Shown piece by piece: positions 1 through 23,339 of a stretch of 43,524 nt of DNA (the stretch's first letter is position 1; each line of letters starts with the position of its first letter). The position numbers and the translations under genes are program-made. The stretch covers positions 1 to 43,524 of the forward strand of contig NZ_JAUNHI010000021.1 of assembly GCF_030524025.1 (NCBI RefSeq). The letters are read 5' to 3'. The notes under the pieces were generated by a model. The model searched no databases and was not told where the DNA came from. It saw nothing but the letters and a program-made list of their open reading frames with translations. This stretch comes from Actinomyces sp. (GTDB taxonomy: Bacteria; Actinomycetota; Actinomycetes; Actinomycetales; Actinomycetaceae).

Positions 1-56
1 AGAGCTGCGGACTTTTAATCCGAAGGTCGTGGGTTCGAGCCCCACGGGGGGCACCA
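1..56 (+). tRNA. tRNA-Lys (UUU), 3' part; 5' end outside window
   Basis: The 3' side of the D stem (2-5), anticodon stem and loop (7-23, loop CTTTTAA at 12-18, anticodon TTT at 14-16), variable loop (24-28), T arm GTGGG-TTCGAGC-CCCAC (29-45), acceptor 3' strand (46-52), discriminator A53 and an encoded CCA (54-56) can be read directly. The first part of the gene lies left of the window. The base pair closing the anticodon stem (G7 with A23) is mismatched. The gene is the integration target of the prophage; the phage attachment site supplies the bases from the crossover to the 3' end, so the tRNA should remain functional. Confidence 0.93.
7..55 (+). other. attL core (49-base direct repeat with attR)
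   Basis: These 49 bases are repeated exactly at 43470-43518 and cover the anticodon arm to the CC of the tRNA-Lys 3' end. Identity breaks at base 6 (T here, C on the right) and at base 56 (A here, G on the right). Recombination within a tRNA 3' half, with a tyrosine integrase directly downstream, is the standard layout for this integrase class, so this is called the left attachment site. Confidence 0.95.
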
Positions 57-4635: not shown

Positions 4636-5411
4636 GCGCCAGGATCGACTGGGCGCGGGGGCCTGTCCCCTGCGTGGAGTGTGGGCGCATGATGCGGCCG
4701 ATCCGCCGCAAGCCTGTCGGTGAGTGGGCGGGCACGGTTCAGGCTGTCGGCCGGGGCATGTGCGCGGCCTGCTATGAGGCGGTGAAGCGCAATGCCAAGA
4801 GCCGCGGGGAGGCGGTCTCGGCGGTGCCGTCGTCGCCGGCTCTTGCGGGGGCGACGATTGACACGGAGGCCCGCCCGCGGGCGTCGTTCGTGTGGCAGTG
4901 GCCGATGGTGTGCCCGGGGGTGCCGTCCCAGCACCTCGAGGTCGAGGCGACAGCCGACCTCATGGACCATCTGGAGGCCATGGGGTGGCTGCTGTCGAGG
5001 TTGCCGCAGCGGCTGTCCCGCCCTGCTGGTGGGGGGATGGCGTGGCTGGTGCACGTCGAGGAGGCCCCGCTGGAGCTCCGGCGGGCCCTGGAGGCCCGCC
5101 CGGAGACGGCGACGATCCCGACCATGCGCGGATCCTTGGTGTTCGCGCGGGCTCTCCTGATGGAGGGGGTGTCCATCGGGCACATGGAGGCCGACATCGT
5201 CGCTGACGCGGCTGCCAAGCTGCGGGAGCTGGGGCTCATCGCGATCGGCCGGCCGGTGCGTGAGGGGATCACGCATGGTCTGGCGCCGGTGATGCGGGTG
5301 CGCATCCCGGTGCGGCAGGCGACGCCGGCTGAGGCGTCGGCTCTGGGGCACGCGTCGGCCGACGTCGACGTCGTGGTGCCGGAGGCCTCCGGCGAGGGGG
5401 TGGCGGCATGA
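4632..5411 (+). CDS. zinc-ribbon early protein of unknown function
   Basis: This 259-residue protein begins with a likely zinc-binding ribbon: CVECG (about 12-16) and CAACY (about 45-49). The rest is mostly helical, with an Arg-rich C-terminal strand region. GTG4632 overlaps the previous stop by four bases and is preferred over in-frame upstream starts. The zinc motif suggests nucleic-acid binding; I do not recognise a family. Confidence 0.75.
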   Translation: MSARIDWARGPVPCVECGRMMRPIRRKPVGEWAGTVQAVGRGMCAACYEAVKRNAKSRGEAVSAVPSSPALAGATIDTEARPRASFVWQWPMVCPGVPSQHLEVEATADLMDHLEAMGWLLSRLPQRLSRPAGGGMAWLVHVEEAPLELRRALEARPETATIPTMRGSLVFARALLMEGVSIGHMEADIVADAAAKLRELGLIAIGRPVREGITHGLAPVMRVRIPVRQATPAEASALGHASADVDVVVPEASGEGVAA

Positions 5412-18066: not shown

Positions 18067-19821
18067 ATGCCCCCGGGCTACTGGGTCGACGAGTCCACGG
18101 GCGCGTGGATGACTCTCCCGTGGCCCGGTGACCCGAGCCTGCCGTGGAATCACGCCGACCGGCTCGCGCTCCTGCCTCCGACCCTCGGTCCCCAGGTGAT
18201 CGCCTGGGCGGAGGCGTACCTCGTGCATCACCTGACCGGTGAGCCCTGGCGCTTCACCGTCGGCCAGAAGCGATTCATCTACCTCTGGTATGCCATCAAC
18301 CCGGCCTCCGGACGCTTCATCTACCGCTCCGGGGTCAAGCGCGGCGCGAAGGGTACCGGGAAGGACCCGACGGCCGCGGCACTGTCATGGGCCGAGGCGT
18401 GTGGGCCCGTCCAGCTCGACGGCTTCGACGCCAACGGCCTGCCCGTCGGCGTCGAGCGAGCCATGTCAAAGGTCCAGATCGCCGCGAACAGCCTCGCTCA
18501 GGCCCGTGAGGTCCTCGAAGTCGCCAACGGGATGATCACCGACGCGCTCGCGAACGACTACGGGGTGGACGCGGGGCTGATGCGGACGGTGACGTCGTCG
18601 GGGCGCATCGAGCTGCTGACGGCGTCGGAGAAGTCGACGGAGGGGGCGCCGGCGACGGCGGTTCTTCTCAACGAGTCGCATCACATGACGTCGGCGTCCG
18701 GTGGCCACAAGGTCGCTGCGGTCGCGCGACGGAATGTCGGGAAGTCACCAGCCTATGTTCAGGCGCGTGTGCTCGAGCTGACCAATGCGCACATGGCCGG
18801 GCAGGACTCGGTCGCCGAGCAGTCGTACCTGGCGTGGCAGGCGCAGCAGCGGCCAGGTGCGCCGCGGCGCGACATCCTCTATGACTCGATCGAGGCGCCG
18901 CCGTCGTGCGACATCTACGACGAGGAGTCCCGCATGATGGGGCTCCGTGCGGCGTACTCCGATGCCAGGTGGTCGGACCTGGAGCGCATCTCGGACGAGA
19001 TGCTCGACACCCGCACCGCGGTGTCGGACTCCATCCGGTTCTATTTCAACGGGCTGGCGGCCGCTGAGGATTCCTGGATCGATCCGGCGCGGTTCGACGC
19101 GATGGCGTCGCCGCGCGAGCTGGCCGAGGGCGACAAGGTCGCCCTGTTCCTGGACTGCTCGAAGAGTGAGGACGCCACCGGGCTGGTGGGGTGCCGCCTG
19201 GAGGACGGCTACGTCTTCGTGCTCGGCGTGTGGCAGCGGCCTCACGGTCACCGTGGCAAGGACTGGCTGGCGCCGCGCCAGGAGGTCGACGCCGTCGTCC
19301 GGCAGGCCTTCGAGCGGTACAGGGTCGCGTGGTTCGGGGTCGATCCCTCCCCGGCCAAAGACGACACGAGCGAGGCCCTCTACTGGGGTGAGTACATCGA
19401 CGGCTGGCACCGGGACCTGCGGCACAAGGTGGCCGTGTGGGCAACGCCGGGGGCCGGCGGATCGGCAGTCCTTTTCGACATGCGGATGAGCGCCCGGGGC
19501 GGTGTGCGCCGCAACCAGGAGTTCACTGACATGGCGATGAGGACCGCAATGGACATCGACGACCCCGAGCAGGGGACGCCGTTCCCGCATGACGGGAATC
19601 CGACGCTACGGGTGCACGCGCACAACGCGAAGCGGCGCCCCAACCAGTGGGGTCACACGCTGGGGAAGGTCAATCGTGACTCCGACAAGCTGGTCGACCT
19701 GGCCGTGTGCATGGTCGGGGCCCGCCTGGGTGCGAAGATCGCCCTGGACTCCGGGAAGGTCGTCCGGCCGGGTGCTGCGTCGTCAAGGCGCCGTCGTCGT
19801 CGAGGGGGGGTGCTCCGGTGA
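18067..19821 (+). CDS. terminase large subunit
   Basis: This 584-residue packaging motor has a Walker A-like motif GAKGTGK (93-99), Walker B VLLNE with Glu203, and the C-terminal nuclease acidic residues Asp363 (LFLDCSKSED) and Asp426 (FGVDPSPAKDD). It would translocate and cut concatemeric DNA. ATG18067 is chosen over GTG18040, which overlaps the small subunit gene; neither has a strong ribosome-binding site. The protein ends in an Arg-rich tail. Confidence 0.93.
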   Translation: MPPGYWVDESTGAWMTLPWPGDPSLPWNHADRLALLPPTLGPQVIAWAEAYLVHHLTGEPWRFTVGQKRFIYLWYAINPASGRFIYRSGVKRGAKGTGKDPTAAALSWAEACGPVQLDGFDANGLPVGVERAMSKVQIAANSLAQAREVLEVANGMITDALANDYGVDAGLMRTVTSSGRIELLTASEKSTEGAPATAVLLNESHHMTSASGGHKVAAVARRNVGKSPAYVQARVLELTNAHMAGQDSVAEQSYLAWQAQQRPGAPRRDILYDSIEAPPSCDIYDEESRMMGLRAAYSDARWSDLERISDEMLDTRTAVSDSIRFYFNGLAAAEDSWIDPARFDAMASPRELAEGDKVALFLDCSKSEDATGLVGCRLEDGYVFVLGVWQRPHGHRGKDWLAPRQEVDAVVRQAFERYRVAWFGVDPSPAKDDTSEALYWGEYIDGWHRDLRHKVAVWATPGAGGSAVLFDMRMSARGGVRRNQEFTDMAMRTAMDIDDPEQGTPFPHDGNPTLRVHAHNAKRRPNQWGHTLGKVNRDSDKLVDLAVCMVGARLGAKIALDSGKVVRPGAASSRRRRRRGGVLR

Positions 19822-21317
19822 CATCTGTGACCTGGCTGGTCGACCCGTCGCGTGACCTCGAGGTCGCGCTGGCTCTCGGTGAGGACCTCGAGGTGTTCCG
19901 TGCGGTCCTGCGCAGGATCGCCAGGCACGGGCGCCGCAACCGGTTGCGCCGCCGCTACTACGACGGCGAGGAGCAGGCCCGCAACATCCAGATTGCGGTG
20001 CCACCCGAGTACGAGCACCTCATGCCGGTCCTGGGGTGGCCGGCCAAGACGTGCAACGTCGTGGCCGCCCGGACCCGGCTCGAGGGCTTCGCGGTCCCGG
20101 GGCGGGCGCAGATGGACGACGAGGTCGCCGAGGTGCTCGATCTGAACCGGCTGCGGTCCTCGGTGCGTCAGGCGACCGTGGCGGCCCTGTGCGAGGGGTG
20201 CGCCTTCGTGTCGGTGACGGTCGGTGACACGGCCGCCGGCGAGCCGCCTGCGGTCATCAGCGTCTACTCCGCTCACGACGCGTCCGGTGAGTGGGACCGC
20301 CGCCGCCGCGATCTGTCCTGCGCGCTCACTATCGATGAGCGCAGCGAGTACGGGGCGATCCTCGCTATGACATTCTGGACCCGGCAGGACCGGGTCGAGG
20401 TCTTCCGCGACGCCGTCACCGCGTCCTGGCAGGCCGAGCGGCTGCCGCACGGCTTCGGCCGGGTGCCGGTAGTGCTCGCCCCCTACCAGGCCGACGGCGC
20501 CCGCCCGTTCGGTCGGTCGCGGATCACCCGGCCGGTGATGCGTCTGACCGATCACGCAGCCCGCACGCTGCTGCGCACCGAAATATCGGCGGAGTTCTTC
20601 TCCGCTCCGCAGCGGTACCTGCTCGGTGCCGACATGGAGGCGTTTGAGGACCCGGAGACCGGGGAGCTGAAGCCAGGCTGGGAGGCGGTCATCGGCCACC
20701 TGATGGTGGCGTCCCGCCCGATCGACGAAAACGACCACGTCTCGGAGACGAACCCCGTCGCGGGCCAGTTCCAGCAGGCGTCGATGGAGCCTCACAACGC
20801 CGAGCTGCGGCAGGTCGCGGCCATGTTCGCCGGCGAGACGTCCATTCCGCTCAACTTCCTGGGCATCGTCCAGGACAATCCGTCATCAGCTGACGCGATC
20901 AAGGCCGCCGAGGCTGACCTGATCGCCGTTGTCGAGGACGCGCAGGCCGACTTCTCGGGGCCGTGGGCGCAGATCGCGCTCCTGGCGGTCCAGGCGGCCC
21001 GGGACACGACCGTGCCACCGGACGACATGTCCGGGCTGCGGCCCGTGTGGCGTGACCCGTCGACCCCGACGAAGGCAGCTCAGGCGCAGTCCGTGATGGG
21101 CCTCGTCGCTGCCGGCGTTCTGCCGGCCCAGTCCGAGGTCACCTACGAGCAGCTCGGCTTCGACGCGGGGACGATCTCCCGGCTGATGGCCGACGCGGCC
21201 TCGCAGCGGGCACAGCAGACGCTGTCGTCCCTGGCGAGCGCCGCGGCATCGGGCAGCACGCTGGCGCAGGAGGTCGCCACGGCGCGCACTGACGCCGACG
21301 GTGCCCCGATCGGCTAG
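19818..21317 (+). CDS. portal protein (SPP1 gp6-like)
   Basis: This 499-residue protein forms the DNA entry ring. Features include RRYYDGEEQARNIQI, GWPAKTCNVVAARTRLEGF and the clip/stem region FFSAPQRYLLGADMEAFED, then AMFAGETSIPLNFLGI and the typical SSADAIKAAEADL helix. GTG19818 overlaps the terminase stop by four bases. Confidence 0.92.
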   Translation: MTSVTWLVDPSRDLEVALALGEDLEVFRAVLRRIARHGRRNRLRRRYYDGEEQARNIQIAVPPEYEHLMPVLGWPAKTCNVVAARTRLEGFAVPGRAQMDDEVAEVLDLNRLRSSVRQATVAALCEGCAFVSVTVGDTAAGEPPAVISVYSAHDASGEWDRRRRDLSCALTIDERSEYGAILAMTFWTRQDRVEVFRDAVTASWQAERLPHGFGRVPVVLAPYQADGARPFGRSRITRPVMRLTDHAARTLLRTEISAEFFSAPQRYLLGADMEAFEDPETGELKPGWEAVIGHLMVASRPIDENDHVSETNPVAGQFQQASMEPHNAELRQVAAMFAGETSIPLNFLGIVQDNPSSADAIKAAEADLIAVVEDAQADFSGPWAQIALLAVQAARDTTVPPDDMSGLRPVWRDPSTPTKAAQAQSVMGLVAAGVLPAQSEVTYEQLGFDAGTISRLMADAASQRAQQTLSSLASAAASGSTLAQEVATARTDADGAPIG

Positions 21318-21331
21318 GGAGGTGGCCCCGC

Positions 21332-22594
21332 GTGGCAGGCGCGTCTCCTCTGGCCATCTGGGACGACCACAGGGTCAAGGTGGAGCAGATCGCCGTCCAG
21401 GGGGTCACCGCCCTGGAGCGGGCCGTCCTGGACAACCCGACGATGAGCCGCACAGAGCTCGCGTGGATCATCCGGCACGTCAACACCGAGTGGGGGACCC
21501 TGGCAGCCCAGGACGCCGCCGACACAATGGTCATGGCCCGCGCCACCGCAGGCCAGTACGACCTCGAGGCGCCCACGGTCATCGACCCCATCACCATGGA
21601 GGTTGCCGAGGCGATCGCGGGGTGGGCTCAGGCCGGCGAGACACCCGAGGCGGTCCTGCGCCGGGCGGCGATCTCGACCACCCGTCACCTGCGCAACTCC
21701 TCCCGCGACACGGTCGAGCTGTCGACCGCGCTCGCCGGCACCGGATGGTGCCGGGTCCCACGCCCCGGCTGCTGCGCCTTCTGCCTCATGCTGGCATCCC
21801 GCGGCGCGGTCTACACGTCGCGGGACGCCGCCCTCACGGTCGGCGGCGGCCGCCGGAAGCGGGGGAAGAGGCCGCCCGGGTCCCGCTATCACGACAACTG
21901 CGGCTGCATGGTCCAGGAGGTCCTCCCAAAGCACGGGGTGCCCCCCATCGTCGCCGGCATGGAGCGCATCCTGGCCGACCTGAAGCGACAGTCGCCCACC
22001 AAGATGGTCACCCTCGACGACTGGAGCGCGTATGAGACCCGCCAGCGCAGGGCGGACGCCGCTGCTAGGCGCAGCGAGGCAGCGACCATGACCAGCGCCA
22101 GGGCTAAGGGGCGCGCCGTGAAGAGGCGCCCCGGGGAGACCGACGCCGACTACTGGGAGCGAAGAGCCCAGGTGAACGGGATCGACTTCCACGGTGAGCC
22201 GGCCAAGGGCCACGAGGTCGTCTCTATGGAGGCGGTCATGGACCTGGGAGAAGACGTCGAGTGGATTCCAAGAGCGAAAAGCGCCCCACGCAACGACATG
22301 TGGCTCAACATCGGGTCCGAGCGGGTGCAGGTCGAGCTCAAGTCCGCCCCTGCGGACTACGACAAGATTCGTTCCAGAATCCTCAAAGCCTCGTCATCAG
22401 CAGCGCGGCACCCCACGGACCCGCTCACGAAGGACGCGTTCATCGTGGACATCGGCGACGCGTCTTTGTCGGACGGGCTGAGCGAGCAGCTGGCCGGATA
22501 CAACCGCGGCCGCCAGAAGTACCGGCTCAAGCACCTCCTGGTGCTCTCGAACAACGGAACGCGGATGACCGCGATCCCACTTCAGCCGGCATGA
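21332..22594 (+). CDS. MuF-like minor head protein fused to a C-terminal CdiA-like nuclease toxin domain
   Basis: Residues 1-235 are a MuF/VG15-type head protein with the zinc-like signature CAFCLMLASRGAVY (about 149-162) and RYHDNCGC (about 186-193). A basic, Glu-rich linker follows (about 236-275). From about residue 274 a separate domain begins: DVEWIPRAKSAPRND, then VQVELKS, then DAFIVDIG and LKHLLVLSNNG. Asp322, Glu335 and Lys337 give a D-x12-ExK pattern as in CdiA C-terminal tRNA nucleases and PD-(D/E)XK enzymes. MuF proteins are injected or capsid-associated, and MuF-toxin fusions are known from temperate phages. The toxin part is about 63% GC (counted over 22261-22560) against about 70% in sampled MuF lines, suggesting acquisition. 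No immunity gene follows. The domain call is by pattern only. Confidence 0.82.
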   Translation: MAGASPLAIWDDHRVKVEQIAVQGVTALERAVLDNPTMSRTELAWIIRHVNTEWGTLAAQDAADTMVMARATAGQYDLEAPTVIDPITMEVAEAIAGWAQAGETPEAVLRRAAISTTRHLRNSSRDTVELSTALAGTGWCRVPRPGCCAFCLMLASRGAVYTSRDAALTVGGGRRKRGKRPPGSRYHDNCGCMVQEVLPKHGVPPIVAGMERILADLKRQSPTKMVTLDDWSAYETRQRRADAAARRSEAATMTSARAKGRAVKRRPGETDADYWERRAQVNGIDFHGEPAKGHEVVSMEAVMDLGEDVEWIPRAKSAPRNDMWLNIGSERVQVELKSAPADYDKIRSRILKASSSAARHPTDPLTKDAFIVDIGDASLSDGLSEQLAGYNRGRQKYRLKHLLVLSNNGTRMTAIPLQPA

Positions 22595-22597
22595 GAC

Positions 22598-22685
22598 CAC
22601 CCAGCGGCGTCCCTCCCGAGTATCAGGAGTGCCCACTGGGTGTCACCTCACATCATACCACCGCCCCTCAGGCGGGGACAGGTTT
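22598..22685 (+). other. structured 145-base gap after the MuF-toxin gene
   Basis: No coding frame of substance is seen between 22595 and 22739. CACCCAG (22598-22604) can pair with CTGGGTG (22636-22642), and CCGCC (22671-22675) with GGCGG (22681-22685). These may be terminators or a structured RNA. An immunity gene, usual for polymorphic toxins, is absent here. Confidence 0.4.
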
Positions 22686-22739: not shown

Positions 22740-23339
22740 ATGAAGCGCACGTCAGCCCGCATCCCCAAGTTCACTCGCTTCGTGACCGCGCCGGCCGCGG
22801 ACCTTTCCGCGGGGGCGCCCTCGTCCACGACGGAGGCCACCACGACGGACGACTCCAAGCCCGCGTGGACGCCCCCTGCGTCGCAGGACGAGCTCAACCG
22901 GATCATCGGCGACCGCCTGGCCCGTGAGCGGGCCAAGTACGGCGACTACAAGGAGCTCAAGAAGAAGGCGGCCGCCTTCGACGAGGCCGCCGAGGCGTCC
23001 AAGAGCGCCGAGGAGCGCGCCGCCGACCGCCTGGCTCAGGCCGAGGCCCGCGCCGCTCAGGCCGAGGCTGCCGCGATGCGCGCCGAGGTCGCCGCCACCA
23101 AGGGGGTGCCGGTCGCGTTCCTCACGGGATCGACCCGCGAGGAGGCCGACAAGGCAGCCGACGCCCTCCTGGCCTGGAGGGACTCCGCTGCCGCCAGCAG
23201 ACAGACCGGGGCGCTGGGACCCGGAGCGCGCCGCGCTCGCGGGAGTGGTTCGACCGAGGGCGTCAAGGGCGGGGGTCTGGCCGCTGGCCGAGCCGCTTTC
23301 CGGGCGCTCAGCGGGAGCCCCAGCCCCAAGAGCGACTGA
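22740..23339 (+). CDS. capsid scaffolding protein
   Basis: This 199-residue protein has a disordered N-terminus, a long Ala/Glu/Lys coiled coil (about 65-125) and the typical scaffold segment GVPVAFLTGSTREEADKAAD (about 122-141). Position between portal/MuF and the capsid gene fits. GAGGAAGA precedes the ATG. It would guide procapsid assembly and leave before DNA packaging. Confidence 0.88.
   Translation: MKRTSARIPKFTRFVTAPAADLSAGAPSSTTEATTTDDSKPAWTPPASQDELNRIIGDRLARERAKYGDYKELKKKAAAFDEAAEASKSAEERAADRLAQAEARAAQAEAAAMRAEVAATKGVPVAFLTGSTREEADKAADALLAWRDSAAASRQTGALGPGARRARGSGSTEGVKGGGLAAGRAAFRALSGSPSPKSD

Follow-up and report, generated by a model that had tools for sequence, protein, structure and literature searches.

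A predicted small RNA gene behind the nuclease-like tail of a MuF-type phage head protein in Actinomyces sp., a candidate for RNA immunity

MuF polymorphic toxins of temperate phages are head proteins with a nuclease-type C-terminal extension, for which delivery by the phage has been proposed. Small open reading frames (ORFs) were found behind 89.4% of 191 MuF toxin genes, so they are common but not universal (Jamet 2017, PMC5576092). MuF fusions were also described by Iyer 2017 (PMC5512222). The locus described below lies in a contig of Actinomyces sp. (NZ_JAUNHI010000021.1), analyzed over its full length of 43,524 nucleotides (the window; host genome 2.68 Mb). It has the same composition, a head protein with a nuclease-like C-terminal tail (21,332 to 22,594, plus strand), and differs from the described MuF toxins by a predicted small RNA gene, which in the tail loci is mostly located on the other strand.

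In type III toxin-antitoxin systems the RNA is encoded upstream of the toxin, is co-transcribed with it and consists of tandem repeats. The present locus likewise joins a structured RNA gene to the gene of a presumably toxic protein, but the RNA lies downstream, has its own −10 box and is mostly found on the opposite strand, and tandem copies occur in some loci only. In the prophage pair AbiF/RCd22, the RNA RCd22 is reported to bind AbiF directly and thereby to neutralize it, both in cis and in trans (PMC12373285). There, too, a protein toxin is associated with a structured RNA; compared with both type III systems and AbiF/RCd22, the tail analyzed here belongs to another toxin family and sits on a head protein. 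CreTA comprises small RNA genes tied to CRISPR loci, in which an RNA acts as the toxin and is counteracted by a CRISPR-like RNA (PMC8501985), whereas the solo RNA copies described below are putative immunity RNAs. The CdiA-CT toxins of the PD-(D/E)XK type (PDB 4g6v, 5j4a; PMC9086364) share the predicted fold and the D and E-x-K residues with the tail. They are part of CdiA and are followed by the gene of a CdiI protein, whereas here the domain sits on a phage head protein with no CdiI-like protein. Titles and abstracts of the top-ranked literature matches, among which subscription journals are mostly not represented, contained no RNA immunity for polymorphic or MuF toxins.

A preliminary description of the locus had reported 145 non-coding bases behind the toxin gene and no neighbouring immunity gene. 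The length is correct, since 145 bases separate the stop codon of the head gene from the ATG of the scaffold gene at 22,740. No small protein gene starts in this gap, the lone frame on the same strand being an upstream start of the scaffold frame. The absence of an immunity gene holds for proteins, but the gap contains a structured hairpin element of the kind associated with the tail and, on the minus strand, a box resembling a −10 element. The predicted small RNA (22,595 to 22,645, minus strand) has the variant loop UGAUACUCG and was assigned by its fold energy and by a place and architecture as in its relatives. The fold z-score is −4.16 (53 bases of the minus strand, compared with dinucleotide shuffles). 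The −10 box TATGAT of the RNA gene was located at 22,652 to 22,657 (minus strand).

In the relatives the elements repeat one design: two stems, outer and inner, of which the inner one is bulged by about seven bases, and a hairpin whose loop has nine bases and commonly reads UGAAAUAAY along the RNA. A structural alignment of 14 elements from 11 tail loci was used to build the covariance model R1. In this alignment 10 of 13 pairs change on both sides. Paired cells amount to 86.8% (70.0% in shuffles). The covariation score of 0.466, compared with 0.163 (sd 0.029), is reached by none of 500 shuffles. The 18 matches outside the R1 training set (17 distinct), which are biased towards R1 since they were found by it and fitted to it, gave 84.0% paired cells (70.5% in shuffles) and a score of 0.445 (0.176), again with no shuffle out of 500 as high. 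Their count of pair types was not above that of the shuffles (152 of 500). In a comparison of 18 elements with dinucleotide shuffles, the fold energies have a mean z-score of −3.7.

When the canonical elements are read in the orientation that gives the loop as UGAAAUAAY, 30 of 32 have a TAnnnT box 17 to 28 nt ahead of the core, and the TATGAT box of the window lies at the matching place. In 500 shuffles the mean was 4.0 and the maximum 9; the mirrored side gave 4 and five other offsets gave 0 to 3. By inspection, the seven variant elements carry a box of the TAnnnT type as well. The 12 bases past the outer stem contain 36% T compared with 23% upstream (39 elements). With a −10-like box at a fixed place and a raised T content downstream, the element has the appearance of a gene for a small RNA, and we regard it as very likely that this gene is real. 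At the gathering threshold, a search of six sources against Rfam 15 resulted in two matches only, both to tRNA models, and in E-value mode two stretches gave 7 and 2 matches, all far under the gathering score.

For the analysis of the linkage between RNA and tail, 20 distinct loci identified through the tail protein were used (window, L014 to L025, L028, L029, L031, L048, L049, L058, L060). L026, L027 and L059 are duplicates of L016, L019 and L022, L044 to L046 are near-identical to the Gordonia phage GMA4 (L025), and G115 is a fragment of 34 positions; these were left out. All 20 loci have the element where the tail frame ends. Its start is no more than about 20 bases away from the stop codon, and in L021 it overlaps the final 27 bases of the frame. 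The match to R1 is clear in 12 loci and weak in L023 (18.9 bits, E 0.14), while in seven loci the hairpin is of the same type but its loop differs (window, L015, L022, L031, L048, L049, L058). The loop UUUCA is common to L031, L048 and L058, whose tails are closely related, and the Mantel correlation between tail and RNA distances is r = 0.49 (p = 0.0002, 19 loci). In L028 (1433 to 2482) the tail frame is interrupted before its end, yet the adjoining RNA matches R1 at 56 bits. A search with a DNA pattern of the RNA, blind to the tail, matched four IMG/VR contigs (L142, L143, L144, L145; L144 is the contig of L028), all of which carry an adjoining tail.

Tail and RNA are also absent together. 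Compared by blastn with the relative L131, which has no tail, the window is 88% identical up to 22,076 and 79% identical from 22,658 on. The 581 bases in between (22,077 to 22,657), comprising the coding end of the tail, the RNA gene and the −10 box, are missing in L131, and one edge of the segment coincides with the box at 22,652 to 22,657. Since L131 lacks both, the two appear to come and go jointly, as toxin and immunity genes do. A tail common to all related MuF proteins, named in the preliminary description as counter-evidence, was not found, given this close relative. In L016, L017, L019 and L024 the RNA occurs in tandem copies, some of them behind an apparent remnant of the 3′-end of a tail, and these look as if left by successive replacement of toxin cassettes. 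There is little doubt in our view that the RNA is the partner of the tail.

As a control, 30 of 57 matches to the VG15 family were examined, of which five carry this tail, 16 other tails and nine none. A same-strand ORF of 55 to 113 amino acids (aa) follows all 16 MuF genes with other tails and starts −28 to 60 bases from the stop codon. Three of these other tails were scanned. Two of them match EndoU nucleases, of which one scores just above the Pfam cut-off and the other below it, and the third matches an ADP-ribosyltransferase. Behind the tail described here, a small downstream ORF is present in one of the five VG15 loci, a 79-aa frame that overlaps the RNA, and the same frame is the only one among the eight loci L014 to L019, L022 and L024. 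In the window, the small downstream immunity ORF usual for MuF toxins is absent. Among the eight tail-less loci that could be counted (L125 ends with its contig), five have a following ORF of 123 to 252 aa, which takes the position of the scaffold gene. Three phage records, from 488 that have a MuF-type match, were also inspected; behind their MuF proteins of 200 to 241 residues the scaffold gene comes next, in one case after an intervening 94-aa protein.

The head protein itself (420 aa, start codon GTG) was correctly recognized as a MuF protein in the preliminary description. Residues 26 to 200 (21,407 to 21,931, plus strand; a profile match in its own genome) match the Pfam family VG15 (PF25310; E 1.1e-27) as well as families of head maturation proteases in PHROG. 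The MuF-type head domain of the polymorphic toxins was identified through VG15 and PHROG. The tail domain (residues 263 to 420; 22,118 to 22,591, plus strand), which was searched by profile and folded, is PD-(D/E)XK-like. In 19 aligned tails (L028 was excluded from protein alignments due to its broken frame), E300 is conserved in 18, N321 and D322 in all 19, E335 in 17 with a D in one more, and K337 in 18. Asp322, Glu335-x-Lys337 and the strand DAFIVDIG lie where they had been described, and the reported drop in GC content could be confirmed, from 71.6% at 21,332 to 22,075 to 64.5% at 22,076 to 22,594 (70.7% in the whole window).

The tail alone matches two PHROGs, one with the annotation head maturation protease (E 8e-9) and one of unknown function (E 2e-10). 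Scans with Pfam, NCBIfam and PADLOC revealed no convincing family, and neither did a profile of the tail among PDB sequences. CDI toxin-like proteins in BFVD match the predicted tail structure with E 4e-3 and 9e-3. Compared with the CdiA-CT structures 4g6v and 5j4a, the identity is 18% over 119 residues. Fold and residues together suggest a toxin-like enzymatic extension, and from the predicted structure the tail is in all likelihood a nuclease-like domain. Of the CdiA-like nuclease proposed earlier, the PD-(D/E)XK fold resembling CdiA-CT is supported; as the tail matched no Pfam family above chance, the kinship to the CdiA_C group is one of fold.

The RNA is also found apart from the tail. 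R1 gave 27 matches in 16 of 213 genomes of the family, eight directly behind a tail, seven as further copies after those and 12 elsewhere. These 12 solo copies occur in 10 genomes. In nine of these the tail has no match anywhere, and in G009, the remaining one, copy and tail are far apart. In 388 genomes of the class only one match was obtained (G341, about 1 Mb from its tail), and in 394 genomes the tail itself was found only in G341 besides the window's own genome. Since background matches of R1 are rare, the solo copies are unlikely to be due to chance. By their flanking ORFs, some of them seem to share a site across species (G151, G163, G157; G142, G162). The copy in G009 (L095 8413, G009:C1:238412) lies behind an apparent capsid gene, in another prophage head module that lacks this tail. 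Solo copies in tail-free genomes are what orphan immunity genes would look like.

CRISPR arrays were found near four of 14 contexts (G035, G142:C8, G005 and the tail remnant in G125), a count that comes without a base rate. The distance between RNA and array is 255 bases in G142:C8 (L070/L090), within 100 bases in G005:C3 (L071/L091) and about 2.4 kb in G035 (L088), and the tail remnant of G125 (L018/L100) lies about 1 kb from its array. The remnant frame opens in a stretch whose letters resemble the translation of a CRISPR array, as though part of a phage head operon had become fused to the array. Degenerate repeats surround the copies in G036 (L072), G170 (L020/L099) and G151 (L069). In G036 the RNA lies between two such repeats with starts 137 bases apart. 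The CRISPR-like repeats next to RNA copies are of more than one type, with spacings of 61 and 64. Detector matches in L098 (two) and L090 (short) and runs of N in L019, L021 and L090 were not counted as CRISPR.

These results are best explained if the head protein is a MuF-type polymorphic toxin that would be incorporated into the phage head and enter the next cell with the DNA. Its C-terminal PD-(D/E)XK domain would cut nucleic acid in the recipient, most likely tRNA. The immunity factor would be a small RNA of about 50 to 110 nt, not a protein. Its gene lies where the toxin gene ends, in most cases on the other strand, and would be transcribed from a −10 promoter of its own. The RNA would probably bind the toxin by mimicking its substrate, which is a guess drawn from the type III antitoxins and from AbiF/RCd22, and toxin tail and RNA would travel as a single cassette. 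As the RNA could be expressed independently of the late genes, it would protect the lysogen, or a host that retains the RNA. Earlier, an unlinked gene, an RNA or use only on injection had been suggested as the source of immunity, and RNA is the sole one with positive evidence. We estimate the probability that the RNA gives immunity against the tail at roughly 60%. More tentative, at somewhat below even odds, is the wider proposal that RNA takes the role of protein immunity in a family of polymorphic nuclease toxins delivered by phages, that the loop has diversified with the toxin, and that bacteria keep orphan RNAs, partly beside or inside CRISPR arrays, as a defence.

Several observations weigh against immunity by this RNA. 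The window's RNA is a variant missed by R1 and has no T-run; its TATGAT box lacks a −35 match, and a promoter scan picks a different site inside the RNA. A second copy was not found in its own genus, where other matches are at chance level, and the plus-strand fold of the gap is unremarkable (201 bases, z −1.13). Four of the 18 elements compared for fold energy are weak (z −0.9 to −1.4), and the automatic P1 finder, a looser measure, identified TAnnnT in only 25 of 39 elements. The R1 matches at tail loci are circular because the model was built from such loci: eleven of the matching loci supplied R1, and L028 is the only independent clear match. An overlap of tail and R1 in seven genomes of the family, compared with 0.9 expected (12 with tail, 16 with R1), was discarded as evidence because all seven fed R1. 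The correlation between tail and RNA distances may reflect shared descent alone. Foldseek found no PDB match of the predicted tail at E < 0.001. Regarding a tRNA target, both DNases and tRNases are found among the PD-(D/E)XK CdiA toxins (PMC9086364). What the analysis shows is the domain and its predicted fold, the RNA element with its covariation and promoter-like box, and its linkage and joint presence or absence with the tail. That the protein is delivered and toxic, what it cuts, and that the RNA is transcribed and neutralizes it, we infer.

The RNA could instead regulate the toxin gene in the style of type I toxin-antitoxin systems, with convergent or antisense transcription lowering the toxin mRNA in the lysogen and leaving the protein untouched. 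This would fit its direction towards the toxin gene, as the two are convergent in 19 of the 20 tail loci listed above, as well as its own promoter-like box and, in the window, the missing T-run, which would permit read-through into the antisense strand of the toxin gene. However, RNA and toxin gene are co-directional in GMA4, L143 and L145, the twelve solo copies lie mostly in genomes with no tail match, and the complement of the canonical loop is absent from six toxin genes checked (including that of the window, whose RNA loop differs). A toxin delivered as protein would also evade such control, and regulation is unlikely to be the function.

Tandem copies, some after apparent tail-end remnants, and a cassette boundary falling exactly on the −10 box would also be expected of an element working as DNA, either a hairpin recombination site for tail exchange or a plain terminator behind the head gene. 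Yet R1 matches four of the five tail-bearing VG15 loci (the fifth is a variant) and gave no match at E < 1 at the 25 VG15 loci without this tail. Loop and bulge are conserved, the −10 box stands at a fixed distance on one strand, and the solo copies retain all three, which makes a DNA function improbable.

Equally improbable, in our view, is a toxin that is active solely upon injection and therefore requires no immunity. The RNA would then be its partner, as guide, cargo or substrate, or would serve an unrelated phage function. The toxin is a head component, which agrees with this explanation, and tRNA-Tyr genes adjoin the RNA at some loci, so that the locus may handle tRNA more generally. Against it, other MuF tails of the same family keep an immunity-like ORF, and copies of the RNA exist in toxin-free genomes.

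The genes in question encode tRNA-Tyr(GTA) and were found behind the RNA in five of 23 tail loci (the 20 loci and three found by pattern), namely in GMA4 (5132 to 5213), L029 (6499 to 6576), L049 (6510 to 6592), L143 (769 to 848) and L145 (6052 to 6131), whose contigs have apparently different head proteins. The D-arms in GMA4 and L029 are tight by eye, and the top Rfam model for the GMA4 gene is tRNA-Sec. The 30 VG15 loci contain no tRNA-Tyr (one has a tRNA-His), nor do the loci of the three annotated phages whose MuF proteins are short. Four contigs with 12 to 25 tRNA genes in the fetched stretch were likewise matched by a strict tRNA-Tyr pattern, and the tail profile was negative there. The tRNA-Tyr, at first considered as partner of the tail, was set aside since the structured element is general and the tRNA is not; its neighbourhood may point to the target of the toxin. 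Readings of the RNA loops as resembling anticodons were also dropped. That it is the true protection, a spare tRNA replacing the one cut by the toxin, is very improbable: a single tRNA type recurs at five tail loci and is absent from the control loci, but 18 of 23 tail loci, including the window, lack it, and similar genes occur in large phage tRNA arrays with no detected tail.

MuF polymorphic toxin genes directly follow a portal gene, and in the window a 536-aa ORF (19,707 to 21,317) in front of the head gene occupies the portal position. The next head gene (22,740 to 23,339, plus strand) is a scaffold gene by position, and the gene order matches that of the three annotated phages with short MuF proteins. 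A tRNA in the gap behind the toxin gene was also considered and rejected, as ARAGORN found none in the window and Rfam detected only the piece at positions 1 to 53 (plus strand). This piece is the 3′-part of a tRNA gene at the start of the contig and possibly marks the attachment site of the prophage.

The toxin-RNA pair of about 580 bp is a testable unit, for which the natural variants and the solo copies serve as built-in controls. In the cited literature polymorphic toxins pair with immunity proteins, and an RNA in this role would join the fields of polymorphic toxins and RNA antitoxins. For the family, RNA immunity would account for toxin tails that are seemingly without immunity.
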